Shown one piece after another: positions 55-40,144 of a DNA stretch of 40,144 bases. Under the pieces are notes generated by a model. It made no database searches. It had not been told where the DNA came from and saw nothing but the letters and a program-made list of their open reading frames with translations. The position numbers and the translations under genes were made by a program. The stretch comes from Rodentolepis nana (taxonomy: Eukaryota; Platyhelminthes; Cestoda; Cyclophyllidea; Hymenolepididae): assembly GCA_900617975.1 (NCBI GenBank), contig UZAE01000090.1, positions 1-40,144 on the forward strand, written 5' to 3'. The first letter of the stretch is position 1. Each line of letters begins with the position of its first letter.

Positions 55-384
55 ATATATATTTCAAATGGCAGGCGTTATGATAGGTATCATTAGCCCT
101 TTAGTTGGCTTCGGGCTTCACAGAAAGGAAGAGGAACATCAAAGTGGTAAAAGTCGAGAGGGAGGGGGAACAGAATAATGATTCACAGACGTAAAAGAGA
201 CAGACAGACAGACACAAAGGTAGAAAAAAGGTGAGGTGAGTACTGTGGAAGGAGTCGAATATGAAATGCAGTGGGGTCTTAGTAGTTTGAAGTCTGAAGT
301 CAACTGCCGATTAATAGACTTTTTGCCGTATGAGTATACGTTGCCCAGTGTGCACCACGTGGAGTTAAGTCTATCTCACACCCC
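55..384 (-). mobile_element. Ribozyme-headed short retroposon, copy 1
   Basis: This is a non-coding retroposon of 330 bp on the minus strand, inside the Arf-GEF intron that precedes exon 839-1101. In element orientation it begins GGGGTGTGAGATAGACTT at 384, contains a CT-rich middle with (GTCT)n, and ends in the tail read on the plus strand as ATTTCAAATGGCAGGCG. It is flanked by a perfect 11-bp duplication (44-54 and 385-395). The same architecture recurs five times in the window. Its 3' tail matches the LINE fragment at 36823-38255. It carries no open frame that is kept between copies, so I treat it as non-autonomous. Confidence 0.85.
314..384 (-). ncRNA. HDV-like self-cleaving ribozyme fold, copy 1 (slightly decayed)
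   Basis: Read on the minus strand from 384: P1 is GGGGTGT with GCACACT, with one mismatch. P2 is ATAGACTT with AAGTCTAT, perfect over 8 bp. L3 is TCCACGT, and the CC needed for P1.1 is present. The joining segment is GGGCAAC. P4 is CGTAT-ACTC-ATACG. J4/2 contains GGCAAA with the candidate catalytic C. P3 has one mismatch (AAC/GGT). The layout matches the HDV-like class in strand order and loop sizes; activity of this copy is doubtful because of the P1 and P3 mismatches. Confidence 0.7.
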
Positions 385-3800: not shown

Positions 3801-5873
3801 GTGGACTCTTTACGTCAACTTGCTGTCAAGTTGATAGAAAAGGGGGAATTACCTAATTTTCACTTCCAAAAGGAGTGCATTCGGTTAGTTATGCTTCATT
3901 AAGTCGCATTTATGGTGTCACGCTACTCGATGGATTTGTGGTTGCTCAGTTTCTGCAGTAAAATAATCTTATGGTTATTTCGAAACTTTTCAGTTTTGGG
4001 CCATTCTCTTTGTTGTAACTGTCGTGTGTTTCTTGCAATCTTACCAAACATTCCGGTTGTTTGTGGAAAGTTACTCAGAGACAATTAGAGAAATTCATTG
4101 CTTCACTTTTAGTGAATGTAATCGCCCAAAGTTTGTGCCTCAGTAGTTCAATGATCAACACACGAGGCAGTTAAGTCAGTGTTTGCGAGATCGGTACGCA
4201 TCCATTAGTATGGAAGGTCCACTTCGCCGGTTATCTACAGACAACAGGGCGATAATAGAACTGGGGTTCTCACTAAAGCTACATCGAAATTTATTTATAT
4301 CAAATTGCAGGCTTTATGATAGTTATCGTTAGCCCTTGAGTTAACTTCGAGCTTCACAAAGAGGAGGAGCATCAAAAACGAGAATAGGGGGAAGAAGATT
4401 GATTCTCAGGCGTTAATGAGACAGGCACAAAGCTGGAGAAAAAGATGAGGTGGGTACGATGGGGGTGGAGGGAGTGGGGGAATTTGACATACAGTAGGGT
4501 CATAGTAGCTTGAAGTCAACTGTCGGTTTATAGACTTTTTTGCAGTATGAGTTGCCCAGGGTGCACCACGTGGAGGTAAGTCTATCACACTACCCATGAA
4601 ATCGAGATAGTTCCTCTAATTAACTCAGAGAGCTTATTATTTCATGTCAATTATGCATTGGTGATGAGTGGTCTTAAAATCTGCTTTTCTTTATTTAATG
4701 TTAATTTTTGCGTCCCCTTAACTTAAGACACTTAAGAGTTAAGTTACTTAAGTGGATTTTTTCTAAAATTAAGTAACGGCGTATTTCACAAATCCAGTTT
4801 TTTTTCATTATCCACACTCATCTTTTGATGTTACTTGAATTCATTACTATTGCTTTGTTCTTTTTCTTCTCTTCTTCATGTATGTTTTAAACGATTTTAA
4901 CGCATAAAACAATGTAGCTGTGAGCTGCTTACTACTTTCCGTCAGTAAATATCATGTGTAGATAGGGTGTCACCATAAAAAGCTTGTAGTATTTTCTTTC
5001 CCTCGTTTCTTGCCCCATTATAGCGCCTATTCTGTTATCTCTATTTGCGTGACCTTTGAATCCATGTTCATTTTCTAAATCTAATTACATCGGGTTGTCT
5101 TGATTTTTTATAGTAATGCCATTATTTTAAGCCACAATGGTGTAATTTTTCAAAATGTGTGCTTGTCAGACTGCTTTAATTGCTCATTAGTGTCGTAGTT
5201 TTTTGCATGAATAAGAATACTTTTATATCTCACTTTGATGAAGTGTTCTTAATTGTAATTAACCTGTTTATATTCCTCCCGATGGAGAAGAATGGCCATC
5301 ATCCTTTTTGTAGTGCCTTGAATGCGGTTCTTGTTGTGAAGTTGAACTATTTCATCGACACCTTTGTACTGTTAGATGGTTCCAGTTGTTGCTGCTATTC
5401 TACGTGCCCATTAGGTATAGCTCGTCTGCTACATTGATTTGACCTACAAGAAGAAAAGACTAGTGCTGTGGTTTGGAGATATTTTCTGCTTTTAATTTGA
5501 ATCTTGCCCCGGTTTGTTGGGAAAACAATCAGCCAATCCTTGTTATTAATTGCCTTTCATATTCGATGTGGTGGAACAGCCCATCAATGAATGGTATTTT
5601 TCGTGGCCTTGCTGGCACGTGGTGATGTGGAAGTGGCATGCTGGTTATGTGGAGTTTCCACCCACTTCATGGCATTGATTCGCTCTTCTGCCAGTTTTAA
5701 TTTGTTATTAGCACTTTTTGGGTATAGATTTCTGCCCATAATAAGTCAATAGACTACCGTAAATAGCAAAGAGCTCATTTGAAAAGCTAATTAACATTTA
5801 GAATAAACTGTATTTGTTGATTTTCATTATTCAGAGTTGTATGCGCTGTTGAAAGTGAATGATTTGTTTTAAC

Positions 5874-18275: not shown

Positions 18276-18566
18276 ATTATTATATCAAATGGCAGGCGTC
18301 TTGATGGTTATCATTAGCTCTTTAGTTGACTTTAGGCTTCACAGAGAGGAAGGAACCTTTAGTTGACTTTAGGCTTCACAGAGAGGAAGGTACATCAAAT
18401 TGATAAGTCGAGATAGGATGGGGAACAGAAGAGTGTTTCGAAGATTTAAGAGACAGACACAAAGGTAGAAAAAAGGTGAGGTAAGTACTATGGAAGTAGT
18501 CGAATATGACATATAGTGAGGCGGTGGTAGTTTTAAGTGAGAAGTCAACTGCCAGTTAATAGACTT

Positions 18567-18694
18567 TTGCCGTATGAGTATACGTTGCCCAGGGTGCACC
18601 ACGTTTGTTTGCCGTATGAGTATACGTTGCCCAGGGTGCACCACGTGATAGACTTTTGCCGTATGAGTATACGTTGCCCAGGGTGCACCACGTG
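18567..18694 (-). repeat. Triplicated ribozyme core inside retroposon copy 3
   Basis: The block reading TTTGCCGTATGAGTATACGT on plus, continuing to the CACGT of L3/P3, occurs three times (about 18567-18604, 18608-18646 and 18653-18692). The first and third units are joined to ATAGACTT; the middle one has TTG in its place. No other copy in the window has this, so it arose in this insertion or its immediate source. Confidence 0.85.
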
Positions 18695-18714
18695 GTAAGT
18701 CTATCGCACACCCC
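18648..18714 (-). ncRNA. HDV-like ribozyme, copy 3 (P1 and P2 perfect, L3 shortened)
   Basis: On the minus strand from 18714: P1 GGGGTGT with GCACCCT pairs fully, with G-U wobbles at the ends. P2 ATAGACTT with AAGTCTAT is perfect. GGGCAAC, P4 CGTAT-ACTC-ATACG and GGCAAA with the candidate catalytic C are present. However three bases (TCC) are missing from L3, removing the cytidines expected to form P1.1. This copy therefore probably does not cleave efficiently. Confidence 0.65.
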
Positions 18715-23263: not shown

Positions 23264-23276
23264 TCGCACAAAATAT
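23264..23276. repeat. Target-site duplication, left copy, of retroposon copy 4
   Basis: TCGCACAAAATAT, matched by TCGCACATAATAT at 23591-23603 (one mismatch in 13). Confidence 0.75.
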
Positions 23277-23590
23277 TTATTTCAAATGGCGGACTTTATG
23301 ACACTTATCATTAGCCTTTAGCTGACTTCGGACTTCACAGAAGGGAGGAACATCAAAGTGATCAAAAGTGAGGAGGGGGAACAGAAGAGTGATTTAAAGA
23401 TGCAAAAGAGACAGACAGACACAAAGGCAGAGAAAAGGTAAGATTAGTACGGTGGAAGTGGTCAAATATGCATACATCTGGGTGGTGGTAGTTTGAAGTC
23501 ATTAGTCAACTGCCGGTTTATAGATTTTTTGCCGTATGAGAATACGTTGCCCAGGTTGCACCACGTGGAGGCAAGTCTATCGGACACCCC
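23277..23590 (-). mobile_element. Ribozyme-headed short retroposon, copy 4
   Basis: A 314-bp minus-strand copy with head, CT-rich middle and tail as in copy 1, lying between the MICOS and atlastin genes. The 13-bp imperfect target duplication ends exactly at the ribozyme's first G at 23590. Confidence 0.85.
23520..23590 (-). ncRNA. HDV-like ribozyme fold, copy 4 (one mismatch each in P1 and P2)
   Basis: From 23590 on the minus strand: P1 GGGGTGT with GCAACCT (one mismatch), P2 ATAGACTT with AAATCTAT (one mismatch), P3 GCC with GGT, L3 TCCACGT, GGGCAAC, P4 CGTAT-TCTC-ATACG, and GGCAAA. The P4 loop differs from copy 1 while the stem is kept, as expected for a structured RNA, although one such change is weak evidence. 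Confidence 0.65.
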
Positions 23591-23603: not shown

Positions 23604-24669
23604 AGAATTTGCTAGGTTGTTCTTCACTTACGAAAAGCGCATTTCTCATTAGCACATCGAATTAGGTTGATAATTTTTGTATCTCGCAAATTTGAAAAGT
23701 GAAATGGATTGCTACACTAATTACATGTCTGTAAAGACTCTAGAACTAGCTAAGCTACCACCACCGCATCTTAACTACAGTCTGAGCGAATGAGACTACT
23801 TGTCCGGCAGTGAATGTGTCGTGTGTCCCACAAAGGTAACCAACTCAACCCCCCCCCCCTTCCTGACAGAGCAGATATGTGTAAAGTTATGTTTCGTCGT
23901 GATTATTGTTAGGTACATGTCTTCTGGAAAATTTTACACAGTTTGTGATCAATTTACAATTTTCGGTTATTTAATGAAGACTTCAAGACATGATCCTTGT
24001 TGCTAACAGTCCCAACCAATTATAAGACTGTTTTTTCGTTTGTGCTTTGTGAGCCTTTTGAATGATTTTACAACCAGATTCCAGTTTAATTTGACAACAT
24101 AAATCCACGCCCAATTGCAAAGGTTCATTTATTAATGCGCATATGGAATGCATAATGTATAAAAGAAACTTAGGAGCAAAATTCTCATTTTCTGAACTGA
24201 TTGAAAAATACACTATATTGGGCTATAAATGGCACATGACAATGAATGGACCTTTGCATTCTAATCTTCATTGATTATATTACAGTTACTGAATCAGAAA
24301 TAGAAAGAACTGAAATTAGGCAACATTAGCTGCGTGTAAATACTAGGTAACAAGTTTTGAAAAAGTCAAAAATAAATTTCAAATTTATTAACTGAAATTA
24401 AGTAACTTGAAGTATTTAAGCTTTTTACGGTAGCTGGACTCAATGCTGAAAAAAATTGACGCGAGATAAGAAAGGAATATATATAATGCCTGACAAATAA
24501 GATAATAATAATTTATTTTAGTTTAAATTAAAAATAATTATTAAAAAATAAAATAATGTTATGTTAAGCCCATATTCGATCTAAGCTACAAATCATATTT
24601 TAATAATCTATATACACTCTGCTCTAATTGAAATTCAGTTTCTAGGTTAATTTACTTCTACCATTGGCC

Positions 24670-27600
24670 ATGAGTGAATTTAAAGGCGAACCTTTGCAAG
24701 TTATTACTACAACAGGTACTGACAAGGGGAATTCCACTGAGCTTGTTGAAAGTGCTCTTTCGAGAATTCTACTAGACAAGCGCGTGAAAAATAAGAAAGT
24801 CGTTGTGGTTTCCGTTGTGGGCACTTTTCGCAAGGGGAAATCGTTCCTCCTTGATTTCTTCTTACGTTATATGTATTCTAATGATAAATCCAATTGGCTT
24901 GGTGATCCGAACGAACCACTAACTGGGTTTCATTGGCGTGGAGGTGCTGATAGGGACACCACTGGAATTTACATGTGGAGTGAACCATTTCTTATTACTA
25001 TTCCCTCCGGAGAAGAGGTAGCGGTTATTTTCCTCGATACACAAGGGTCATTTGATTGCCGTGCTAATATGAAACAATCCGCTACCATTTTTGCCTTGAG
25101 CACAATGCTGAGCAGCAAGGAAATATTTAATATTAAGGATAATTTACAAGAGGATTACTTGCAGCACCTACAATTTTTTACGGAGTATGGTAGGATTGCT
25201 CTTGAATCCGGATATGCTCAAACCCCCTTCCAGGTATTTCCCTTAAAACTACTATCATTTTCCTATTTTAAAAATTATTTTTGCTTTATTTGCTTCCAAA
25301 TTTCAGCATCTTGAGTTCTTAATTCGGGATTGGGCTTTTGCTTACGAGTATCCTTTTGGCAGGAAAGGAGGAATGGATCTCCTTAATAAACGTCTCGAAG
25401 TAAGTTCTCCTTTTTAAATTTTTGATTGAAATCTTTTCCAAGCTTAAATATGCTGTTTTGATCGAATGAATTGAATATGATATTTTCTGTTAAGTAGATG
25501 TGTATTGATGTTATTAAGTGAACTCTTTGCGACACCTTTTATATCACTTCTTATGTTCAAATTTTACCGTAATTTTCAATTTTTTGAGAAGTCGATTTTT
25601 GAAGATTTATCTACCATGAATAAATTCCCACTTTGGCTGATAATACATCATTTAATAATTATTTATTGCCAACCTCTCTTCTCTTTCCATGCTTTATGTT
25701 CCTGTTCTTCCCCTTTTATGATATCCTCCCCCCCCCCCCCCAGTACGGCATATTCTGAATGATTCGAGAATATCTGCAGTTAAAGTTGTTTTGACCTCAC
25801 CTACTTCAATCTTGTTGATTTAGGGTACTAAGCAAATGAGTAAGCGTGGTTAAATCCCATAATGTTGCCCTGGCGACGTTAAGTGTTTGAAATATTTTTC
25901 TTGAAAGGGCCTGGAGCTATTAATACCCAACCTTGCTTTTGCTGTACTGTTTTGTTGGTATTAGCCGATTCGCAATTATTTTGGTCTTTTAGGGTACCAG
26001 TCCCAGATTTTTGTACATTAAGGAATTCCCTTTATCGTGTTGTTTTCAAATACGAGTACAAAATTTACTATTAGGTTGGCAACTAAGTCGTTGCCGATTT
26101 CAAATAAGAAGGCAAATTCGGAATTTTTGTCTAAAAATATAACTTTATTCAATTAGATATTGGCCGCTCTTGTCGATGACCTTTTCCCATCGTTCTGGCA
26201 GAGTAAAAATTCCCCGTTCGTAAAATGTTTGGTCTTTGCTATTAAAAAACTGAATTAGGTGTGATCCGACATCATCCGCGTTGTTAAAAATTTTACCATT
26301 TAAAGAGTTTTGCATGGAACGAAACAAGTGGTAATCCGAAGGCGCAAGGTCAGGGCTATATGGTGGGTGTGACAAAACAAAATAAAACATCCCAACCCAG
26401 TTGCAATAATTTTTGCCGAGTAACCAAAGATGTGTAGGGCCTTGCGTTATCATGATGGAAAACAACACCCTTCCGATTTGATAATGCCGGCCGCTTATCT
26501 TCAATTGCATCCTTCTTTCAGTTTTTCGAGTTGTTCAACATACACATTTGAATTTATCGTTTGGTTCTGCGGCATGAGTTCAAAATACAAAATTCCTTTG
26601 TGATCCCACCAGACTCACAGCATAATCTTTTTTTGGTGAATCTCTGCTTTTGATACTGTTTGGGCTGGTTGATCTTGCTTCACGCATGATCTCTTGCGAG
26701 TAACATTGTTATAAACTATCCACTTTTCGTCGCCAGTAACTAGGTTCTTCACAAATGGATCATTCTCATTGCGTTTCAGTAGCGGCGAATCACAGATGCT
26801 AATCCGTTGCGTCAAATGAATTTCCTTTAACTGGTGAGGGATCCAAAAATCAAGTTTCTTGACATAACCAAGGGTTTTTAATTTTTTTCAATGCATGTAT
26901 GCGACACATTGAGCTTCTCTGCAATACCTCGTGTTGTGCTGTGACGATTTGAATCGATAATGGCCTTGATATGGGTTTCATCCACTTCGACTGGGCGGCC
27001 AGACCGTTGTGAATTTTTCAGTGAAAAATCACCGGAACGAAATCTTTCAAACCAATTTCGACACTGCCTTTCTTCCTCACGGCTTCATCTCCATATACGG
27101 CACATAACTTCTTTTGCGCTTGCGATGCGTTCTTGCCTTCTCGGAAGTAATACAATAAAATGTGTCGGAAGTGCTCGTCCTGTTCTTTCATTTTTAAATT
27201 GGGATAAAAACAAAACTAAAGAACTGAACAAAAAAATTTTTTACTAATTAACCTAGAAAAAAATATAGGTTAGATGCTCTGGCCACGTTAACAGAACAAA
27301 AGAAAGTATAGAGTGAATATGTCAACAAAAACGGCAATGACTCCAAAAAGGTGATTTCGATGACAGAAAAATTGTGCTTTTCTTATATATCCATTTTTAG
27401 CATTAATTCCTCTTTGTGTTTAATAGGATATTCATTTTGTGTTTGACGACATCGTTATGAATTCAATAGTACCATTTTTAGTATATGTATGGGCGAAAAA
27501 AATAAATTTTGGGAGTGAATTTTGGAAGCTATTATCTTTTGATTCTACACATTGTGCAGCTGTTTTTATGAGAAATGCGTTTTCTTTAAACTCTCCTTTT

Positions 27601-35772: not shown

Positions 35773-35782
35773 TTAGTCACTT
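35773..35782. repeat. Target-site duplication, left copy, of retroposon copy 5
   Basis: TTAGTCACTT, identical to 36101-36110. It ends immediately before the first G of the element. Confidence 0.88.
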
Positions 35783-35854
35783 GGGGTGTACGATAGACTT
35801 ACCTCCACGTGATGCACTCTGGGCAACGTATGCCTATACAACAAAAAAGTCTAC
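35783..35854 (+). ncRNA. HDV-like self-cleaving ribozyme fold, copy 5
   Basis: P1 is GGGGTGT with GCACTCT (pairs fully if G-U wobbles are allowed). P2 is ATAGACTT with AAGTCTAC (one mismatch at the base). P3 is ACC with GAT (one mismatch). L3 is TCCACGT, followed by GGGCAAC. P4 is GTAT-GCCT-ATAC. J4/2 is AACAAA instead of GGCAAA, keeping the catalytic C position. Fold order, loop sizes and start at the insertion boundary support the class; this copy may be weak. Confidence 0.68.
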
Positions 35855-36100
35855 AGACAGTTGACTTCTGACTTCAAAATACCATCACCCCACTGTATGT
35901 CATATTCGACTACTCACAGTAATCACCTCACCCTTTCTCTGCCTTTGTGTCTGTCTGTCTCTTTTGCATCTGTGAATCCCTTTTTTGTTCCCCCTCTCGA
36001 CTTTTTCTCATTTTGGTATTCCTCCCTCTGTGAAGCCCGAAGTCAACTAAAGAGCTAATGATAACTGTCAAAACGCCTGCCATTTGAAATAAATAAATTG
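35783..36100 (+). mobile_element. Ribozyme-headed short retroposon, copy 5 (cleanest boundaries)
   Basis: A 318-bp plus-strand copy. It starts GGGGTGTACGATAGACTT and contains the CT-rich middle with TGTCTGTCTGTCTC. It ends with the tail CAAAACGCCTGCCATTTG followed by a short AAAT-repeat tail (AAATAAATAAATTG). A perfect 10-bp duplication TTAGTCACTT lies at both ends, so both termini are defined to the base: the 5' terminus is the predicted ribozyme cleavage site and the 3' terminus is the AAAT tail. Confidence 0.9.
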
Positions 36101-36110
36101 TTAGTCACTT
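36101..36110. repeat. Target-site duplication, right copy, of retroposon copy 5
   Basis: TTAGTCACTT, identical to 35773-35782. Confidence 0.88.
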
Positions 36111-37309: not shown

Positions 37310-37590
37310 AAGGAGAAACAGTGGACAGTGGCACTCTCCGATATAGCCCCAAGGAGAAACAGTGGACAGTGGCACTCTCCGACATAGAGGAGAAATAGTG
37401 GACAGTGGCACTCTCCGACATACCCGGCTTTCCAGACCTCAAGGTTCAACGAACTCAAAGCTCGAACAACAGAGAAACAGTGGACAGTGGCACTCTCCGA
37501 CATAGCCGACTAGCCAAGAATCAGAAACAGTGGACAGTGGCACTCTTCGATATAGCTAGGAGAAATAGTGGACAGTGGCACTCTCCGACA
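37310..37590 (+). repeat. Six-copy dispersed tandem block encoding QWTVALSDI
   Basis: GTGGACAGTGGCACTCTCCG and close variants start at 37321, 37362, 37398, 37480, 37530 and 37568. Spacing varies from 36 to 82 bp. The surrounding CTCAAGGTTCAACGAACTCA is also duplicated (about 37280 and 37438). Confidence 0.9.
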
Positions 37591-37694
37591 TACCCGGCGG
37601 CGAGAATCGAAGCCGTTGCTGAGTTTAGACTACGTATCGGACAGGATTGCCCCGTTGATGAGTTTAGACTACGTACCGAACACGATTGCCTATA

Positions 37695-38030
37695 AACACC
37701 TTCACAGATTGGGAGTATACACTCAACTCACATGTACACCTTCACAGATTGGGAGTATACACTCAACCCACATGGACCTTCACAGATTGGGAGTATACAC
37801 TCAACCCACATGCCCCCTTCACAGATTGGGAGTATACACTCAACCCATATGCCCTTTCACAGACTGGGAGTATACACTCAACCCACATGCCCTCTGCACA
37901 GATTCGTACCGGACACGATTGCTTGACAAAACACCTTCACAGATAGGCAAAACACCTTCACAGATTGGGAGTATACACTCAGCCCATACACCTTCACAGA
38001 TTGGGATATACACTCAACCCACATACCCTC
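37695..38030 (+). repeat. Minisatellite of about 38 bp encoding HLHRLGVYTQPTC
   Basis: TTCACAGATTGGGAGTATAC and its continuation CACTCAACCCACATG start at 37701, 37741, 37779, 37818, 37856, 37957 and 37993, with partial units at about 37895 and 37935. The unit length is 36-40 bp and not a constant multiple of 3, so the peptide is read in rotating frames. Confidence 0.92.
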
Positions 38031-38255
38031 TATGTAACCTACAGGAGCCTCACATGCCCTCTATGTAACCTACATGAGGAAATGGAGAAGACCCACCTGA
38101 TTCGGTGTCCAACCCTAAAGACAAGGACGAAAAGCCAAAGATACTGGGAAGCAAGAAGACAGCTATTGAATTGCTATTAATTAGCCCATGGGGGAAGCTG
38201 AAGTCAAAGTTTAAGGGCTAACGATAAATATCATAAAGCCTGCCATTTGAAAAAA

Positions 38256-38270
38256 ATATTTCTAAATAAA
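38256..38270. repeat. Target-site duplication, right copy, of the LINE fragment
   Basis: ATATTTCTAAATAAA, identical to 36808-36822. Confidence 0.85.
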
Positions 38271-40078: not shown

Positions 40079-40144
40079 TTATTTATTTGTATCAAATGGT
40101 TTTAATAGTTATCATTAGCCTTTTAGTTGATTCCAGGCTTCACA
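40079..40144 (-). mobile_element. Ribozyme-headed short retroposon, copy 6 (cut by the window end)
   Basis: The tail of the family on the minus strand (on plus: ATCAAATGGTTTTAATAGTT, then ATCATTAGCCTTTTAGTTGA and GGCTTCACA). The rest of the element, including any ribozyme, lies beyond 40144. Confidence 0.8.

Follow-up and report, generated by a model that had tools for sequence, protein, structure and literature searches.

LINEs of the L1Tc/ingi type in trypanosomatids encode an endonuclease, a reverse transcriptase (RT) and RNase H and open with an HDV-like ribozyme, and their non-autonomous short partners, NARTc, RIME and SIDER, carry the head of the LINE, in some elements in tandem (PMC4035085). 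The L1Tc ribozyme resides in Pr77 (PMC4035085), a sequence that activates transcription (PMC8190864). In Drosophila, the R2 SIDEs combine a 5' ribozyme with the 3' end of a LINE and are moved by LINE proteins (PMC3414825). R2 elements also occur in flatworms, and some R2 families have HDV-like ribozymes (PMC5035012), so a flatworm R2 ribozyme may already be in print. Hammerhead retrozymes and short repeats of animals, flatworms included, likewise place a self-cleaving ribozyme on a non-autonomous element (PMC7229834).

Among titles and abstract openings we found no HDV-like ribozyme of a cestode element, and a mention in Webb 2009 or Ruminski 2011 is possible. The available parts of two R2 papers make no mention of tapeworms or cestodes (PMC13188248, PMC3774820). 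The paper on the taeniid Ta-TRIM, in its available part, terms taeniid mobile elements virtually unexplored, and the word ribozyme is absent from it (PMC4558846).

The window analyzed here, a stretch of 40,144 nt from the tapeworm Rodentolepis nana (assembly GCA_900617975.1, contig UZAE01000090.1), holds five copies of a short, SINE-like retroposon that open with a candidate ribozyme. We located them with R1, a covariance model derived from 36 copies in the genome, three of which come from the window and are hence matched by construction. The copy on the plus strand, its parts and the related sequences are as follows.

35783..36100, plus strand: short retroposon (SINE-like), full length, with ribozyme head and a 10-nt direct repeat at its flanks
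35783..35854, plus strand: predicted 72-nt ribozyme head of HDV-like type, with cleavage expected between 35782 and 35783; 84.6 bits with R1
35783..35789, plus strand: P1, 5' strand, placed by pairing register and sequence
35793..35800, plus strand: P2, 5' strand, placed by pairing register and sequence
35801..35813, plus strand: P3 with the 7-nt L3 TCCACGT; P3 of this copy has a C.A mismatch
35814..35820, plus strand: P1, 3' strand, placed by pairing register and sequence
35821..35822, plus strand: GG of P1.1, partner of the CC at 35805-35806
35827..35840, plus strand: P4 hairpin, with an outer C.A mismatch in this copy
35842, plus strand: putative catalytic C after P4, a C in most other heads
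35847..35854, plus strand: P2, 3' strand; its last base forms an A.C mismatch in this copy
35773..35782 (left) and 36101..36110 (right), plus strand: target-site duplication TTAGTCACTT flanking this copy
36032..36098, plus strand: 3' tail common to the SINE and the LINE 3' end, by DNA similarity
56..384, minus strand: second copy, head 384-306, duplication GTAACAAACCA
23268..23590, minus strand: third copy, head 23590-23512, 7-nt duplication TGTGCGA
18277..18714, minus strand: fourth copy, head 18714-18640, ribozyme core in tandem at 18559-18694; no duplication found at its flanks
4288..4595, minus strand: fifth copy, head 4595-4522, P4 lost
38194..38258, plus strand: family tail fragment, element positions 250-313
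40099..40144, minus strand: family tail fragment, extending past the window end

The original prediction had named these five heads (384, 4595, 18714 and 23590 on the minus strand, 35783 on the plus strand), had drawn their stems on a consensus and had stated that every copy carries a defect, and all three points are borne out. R1 gives the heads 95.2 bits (384), 70.6 (4595), 85.5 (18714), 94.5 (23590) and 84.6 (35783), a density of five heads per 40 kb; a further match, the sixth, covers 18602-18551 in part and corresponds to the tandem core copy, and the next has E = 3.1. R1 rests on an alignment, A1, of 36 of 44 heads. Eight were removed by hand for being tandem, duplicate, cut off or odd in their first bases (the 18714 copy, L009, L011, L014, L030, the second copy in L036, L037 and L043), so both A1 and R1 are biased toward well-kept copies. 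By BLAST, the 35783 element shares 84-86% identity with the best 39 other copies listed.

On the majority sequence of the family, all stems are present in the order 5'P1-5'P2-P3-3'P1-P4-3'P2. P1 is the 7-bp GGGGTGT/GCACCCT, with a G.U pair at the cleavage end and a U.G pair at the opposite end; P2 is the 8-bp ATAGACTT/AAGTCTAT; P3 is ACC/GGT, closed by L3 TCCACGT and followed past P1 by the linker GGGCAAC; and P4 is CGTAT/ATACG, with GGCAAA in J4/2. P1.1, formed by two C of L3 and two G after P1, is paired in 96.4% of cells over 120 distinct rows. The J4/2 position past P4, where the C of HDV ribozymes is catalytic, is C in all seven LINE heads described below and in 113 of 116 other heads. 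By strict pairing 41 of 123 heads are complete, a fraction that describes a sample chosen for close similarity to the window copy or to the Rfam model RF02682 and is not a genome-wide rate. The pseudoknot-free minimum-energy fold of an intact head reaches -18.6 kcal/mol, and the two nested halves of the HDV fold, each taken alone, reach -14.6 and -11.1 kcal/mol, weaker than that fold, in a scoring that leaves the full knot outside.

None of the five window heads is structurally complete. The 35783 head forms P1 7/7, P2 7/8, P3 2/3, P1.1 2/2 and P4 4/5 pairs; with their other stems complete, the 384 head lacks one pair in each of P1 (6/7) and P3 (2/3), the 23590 head one in each of P1 (6/7) and P2 (7/8), the 18714 head both of P1.1 (0/2), and the 4595 head two in P1 (5/7) and all of P4 (0/5). 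As about one third of the heads in the sample are complete, these defects look like ordinary decay. Ribozyme cores in tandem occur inside the head at 18559-18694, with a unit of ~42-47 nt, and also in L127, L116 and L055, and they recall the doubled Pr77 heads of SIDER2. Long G runs open some elements (L009, L030, L110), and C runs occur in the 3' UTR of the LINE.

The original prediction had come with a proposal to search the window and the genome copies by covariance; many genome copies score over the RF02682 cut-off, and the window copies fall below every Rfam cut-off. The Rfam scan of the window gave no match over cut-offs, the 35783 copy scoring 22.2 bits with RF02682 (gathering cut-off 44) and 19.8 with RF00094. 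In whole-genome searches, where only the best candidates among BLAST copies and RF02682 matches were scored, RF02682 was over its gathering cut-off at 37 of 61 scored places, with a best score of 54.5 bits against 44 and a top E of 1.1e-7. RF00094 was rejected as a home family, since none of 71 matches (86 candidates scored) reached its cut-off, the best having 44 bits against 50. With RF02682, a control search of 14 genomes reached the cut-off in none of them, though eight had weaker matches; those eight are prokaryotes, which makes the control weak for an animal genome. To our knowledge, the Rfam models were built without the tapeworm family.

RF02682 (HDV-F-prausnitzii) is the best-scoring Rfam model. 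Two of eight loci, L006 and L007, were over the cut-off, and we compared the higher-scoring one, L006, so the compensated pairs rest on a single copy. P1, P3 and P4 align unbroken in it, and all 15 consensus pairs are formed, six of them identical, two changed on one side and seven on both; L3 agrees with the consensus at five of seven positions and the linker at five of six. Nonstandard pairs relative to the model number one each in L007, L125 and L126, three in L102 and none in L128. P2, 8 bp in the majority sequence, is absent from the model. The RF02682 ribozyme is bacterial, and seven of the 15 pairs differ on both sides; the likeness need not reflect shared descent.

Covariation inside the family, the refuting check named in the original prediction, points neither way, as expected if copies decay after insertion. 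Among 36 close copies, no pair has changed on both sides. Across the 123 matches, in an alignment fitted to P1, P3 and P4, nine double-change pairs compare with 3.9 in shuffles (two of 500 as high), but controls with slid partners reach 7-14, so the count speaks neither for nor against the pairing and is not used as support. In the stems, the LINE and SINE majority heads differ only at positions 7 (T to C) and 54 (A to G), and the pairs are kept.

Where the element begins bears on where the ribozyme would cut. Over 43 copies the majority base accounts for 0.35-0.63 upstream of G1, the base with which P1 opens, and for 0.84-0.98 from there onward; because the query began at G1, only the missing upstream conservation is informative. 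Target-site duplications were sought in the 40 of these copies that extend 385 nt past G1, L011 being omitted because it duplicates L010. Near the junction, 29 of the 40 carry a direct repeat no shorter than 8 nt, a few of these being simple runs (L028, L026, L030), and in 11 none of that length was found there; the repeat stops precisely at G1 in 16 copies and no more than 3 nt away in 25. Words of 8 nt and longer end at G1 in 19 of 40 copies and one base into the element in four, and pairing flanks from different copies yields seven in 1,560. The element therefore starts where cleavage by an HDV-like ribozyme would be expected, which indirectly supports the predicted cut just ahead of P1. 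Three copies, L019, L022 and L046, share one identical head sequence of 114.5 bits each, and duplications of 14 nt in L019 and 13 nt in L046 end exactly at G1. Copies are spread over many contigs, with duplications of 7-18 nt.

A partner that the original prediction did not contain is a LINE that starts with this head and shares the 3' tail of the SINE. We scored 150 places with an RVT_1 domain, and 20 of the 30 fetched loci belong to this family by DNA similarity; the 3' ends of RT-bearing loci match SINE positions ~250-316, the last ~65 bases, at ~80-85%. One internally deleted LINE, L102, has the head at its start, and it is the one LINE copy in which both ends, shared head and shared tail, were compared. 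The 5' UTR of L102 recurs at no fewer than 40 places, and in all seven that were read (L102 and L125-L130) the head stands at the start, with partial heads in tandem in L127. With an internal stretch of L099 as query, 12 further loci were fetched, of which L113 and L123 stop at contig borders and ten have upstream sequence (L114-L122 and L124). Eight of the ten (L116-L122 and L124) carry the head on the same strand, ~720-980 nt upstream of the L099-type stretch; the other two, L114 and L115, are 5' truncated, their first bases being LINE positions 133 and 682 in a numbering that runs from G1 of L117. Overall, 15 of 17 LINE copies readable upstream have the head, the remaining two being these truncated ones, and in L116, L118 and L124 the first bases of the head are damaged. 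The head search over 86 sources omitted L001-L008 and L011, which are duplicates, as well as 23 RT loci and L112-L124, which were searched for heads in a separate later round.

The LINE copies were read as found, none being assembled or mended. In 12 of 14 copies the distance from G1 to an ATG is 99-110 nt; in L116 it is 120, and in L102 the place is taken by a TTG at 109; L127 gave no usable value. In nine translated copies the frame after the ATG reads toward the endonuclease motif, with stops in L116, L118, L119 and L120. The domains Exo_endo_phos_2 (PF14529), RVT_1 (PF00078) and RNase_H (PF00075) are present on different LINE copies. The best named protein relatives are from R. nana itself at 42-92%, highest over short stretches, and Hymenolepis microstoma proteins stand lower in the match list at 66-77%. 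That the middle of the SINE derives from the LINE was considered and rejected: eight of 40 RT or LINE loci match the middle, and we read them as probable SINE copies, since several coincide with a known SINE head or copy. Heads on the strand opposite to the LINE, upstream of its RT, occur in L092 (675-599), L093 (2335-2406, touching LINE sequence) and L097 (857-780); these may be twin-priming inversions or separate insertions.

Taken with the RF02682 matches, the compensated pairs of one copy, the boundary at the cut and the LINE head, the structure supports the HDV-like reading of the original prediction. What the sequences support directly is the match in sequence and structure, the boundary at G1 and the head and tail common to the LINE. 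We consider it very probable that both members of this tapeworm LINE/SINE pair begin with a predicted HDV-like self-cleaving ribozyme, which frees the RNA for copying by the LINE protein. An element lying in a transcribed region would be co-transcribed with host sequence by read-through from outside; the ribozyme would fold and cut just before G1, leaving an RNA with a defined 5' end. LINE translation would begin at the start codon ~30 nt past the ribozyme, and the LINE protein, with its endonuclease, reverse transcriptase and RNase H, would copy the RNA, starting at the shared 3' tail, so that a new insertion would have its target-site duplication directly against G1. The same protein would presumably mobilize the short element. 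Such a mechanism would account for an exact 5' end in a dispersed element.

The design has already been published for trypanosomatids and Drosophila, and the tapeworm family extends ribozyme-headed LINE/SINE pairs to tapeworms. Like the L1Tc/ingi LINEs, the tapeworm LINE has endonuclease, RT and RNase H domains and a predicted 5' HDV-like ribozyme, its SINE carries the LINE's head as NARTc, RIME and SIDER do, and tandem heads recur in the 18714 copy and L127; the differences are the tapeworm host and a SINE middle that was not traced to the LINE in the loci searched. The tapeworm SINE is alike in design to the R2 SIDEs, and the R2 core CCUCCUCGUGG, as given in the available part of PMC5035012, is one base off the tapeworm CCUCCACGUGG. 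R2 targets 28S genes, whereas the tapeworm copies are scattered. Hammerhead retrozymes belong to another ribozyme class and have tandem repeats and circular RNA, in contrast to the one HDV-like 5' head of the tapeworm SINE. In some organisms, HDV-like and hammerhead ribozymes reportedly were thought, by Ruminski et al. in 2011, to serve long and short elements separately; here one ribozyme would be common to both.

The explanation that survives best beside a working ribozyme, though we hold it unlikely, is that the head was once the LINE's ribozyme and is now mainly an internal promoter or a signal to the LINE protein, with self-cleavage dispensable. Pr77 offers a precedent, since it both activates transcription and holds the L1Tc ribozyme (PMC8190864, PMC4035085), and the RF02682 scores of the seven LINE heads, 26-40 bits and all below 44, are lower than those of the best SINE heads. 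A head released from cleavage fits poorly, however, with the C after P4, P1.1 and L3, which the LINE and the SINE majority sequence both retain, and with the 41 of 123 heads that are structurally complete.

It is less likely still that the ribozyme is active on the LINE only and that SINE heads are passive leftovers. The defects in all five window copies lean that way, but 40 of the 41 complete heads lie outside the seven LINE heads counted, and the identical heads of L019, L022 and L046 belong to a group in which the duplications of L019 and L046 end exactly at G1. A conventional RNA polymerase III SINE whose head resembles HDV-like ribozymes by chance is a scarcely credible reading of the short element: its majority sequence has a TTCGA at element position 127, which we take to be like a B-box, but it also has conserved T runs at positions 157, 186 and 226 that would be expected to stop this polymerase and that disfavor such a SINE, RF02682 reaches E = 1.1e-7 genome-wide, and the same head stands before the coding frame of the LINE.

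Returning to a self-cleaved 5' end, the SINE may contain a further feature that would act on the freed RNA. SINE positions 81-90, just past the ribozyme, are complementary over 10 bp to positions 266-275, a match reached by two of 500 shuffles. The arms in the plus-strand copy are as follows.

35859-35868 with 36039-36048, in the 35783 copy: arms of the possible terminal stem, one past the ribozyme and the other ahead of the tail

The analysis of the stem and the T runs covered 40 copies, each 330 nt or longer; the 18714 copy was not among them, nor was L011, which duplicates L010. Counting G.U, 25 of the 40 copies form all ten pairs and 37 form nine or more; the pair 83/273 is T-A in 26 copies, T-G in 11 and C-G in three. 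In the LINE, the arms are TTTGACTTC in five of seven heads read and GAAGTCAAA in seven of nine tails read, with a T-A replacing a G-C of the SINE, and in L102, the sole LINE copy with both ends compared, the 5' arm is broken. The proposal that the 5' end produced by the ribozyme is designed for pairing with the 3' end of the same element is tentative, and we regard it as doubtful. If true, the two ends of the cleaved RNA would come together, offering head and tail jointly to the LINE protein, and ribozyme and terminal stem would form a unit that marks what this protein copies.

The window holds other features apart from this family. A short open frame at 26145-26510 on the minus strand has no Pfam match and, to judge by a motif, resembles the end of a mariner-type transposase. 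On the plus strand, an open frame at 37568-38068, also without a Pfam match, repeats a TPSQIGSIHSTH-like motif and is an in-frame minisatellite, and 24664-25314 is an atlastin-like GTPase exon (PF02263).
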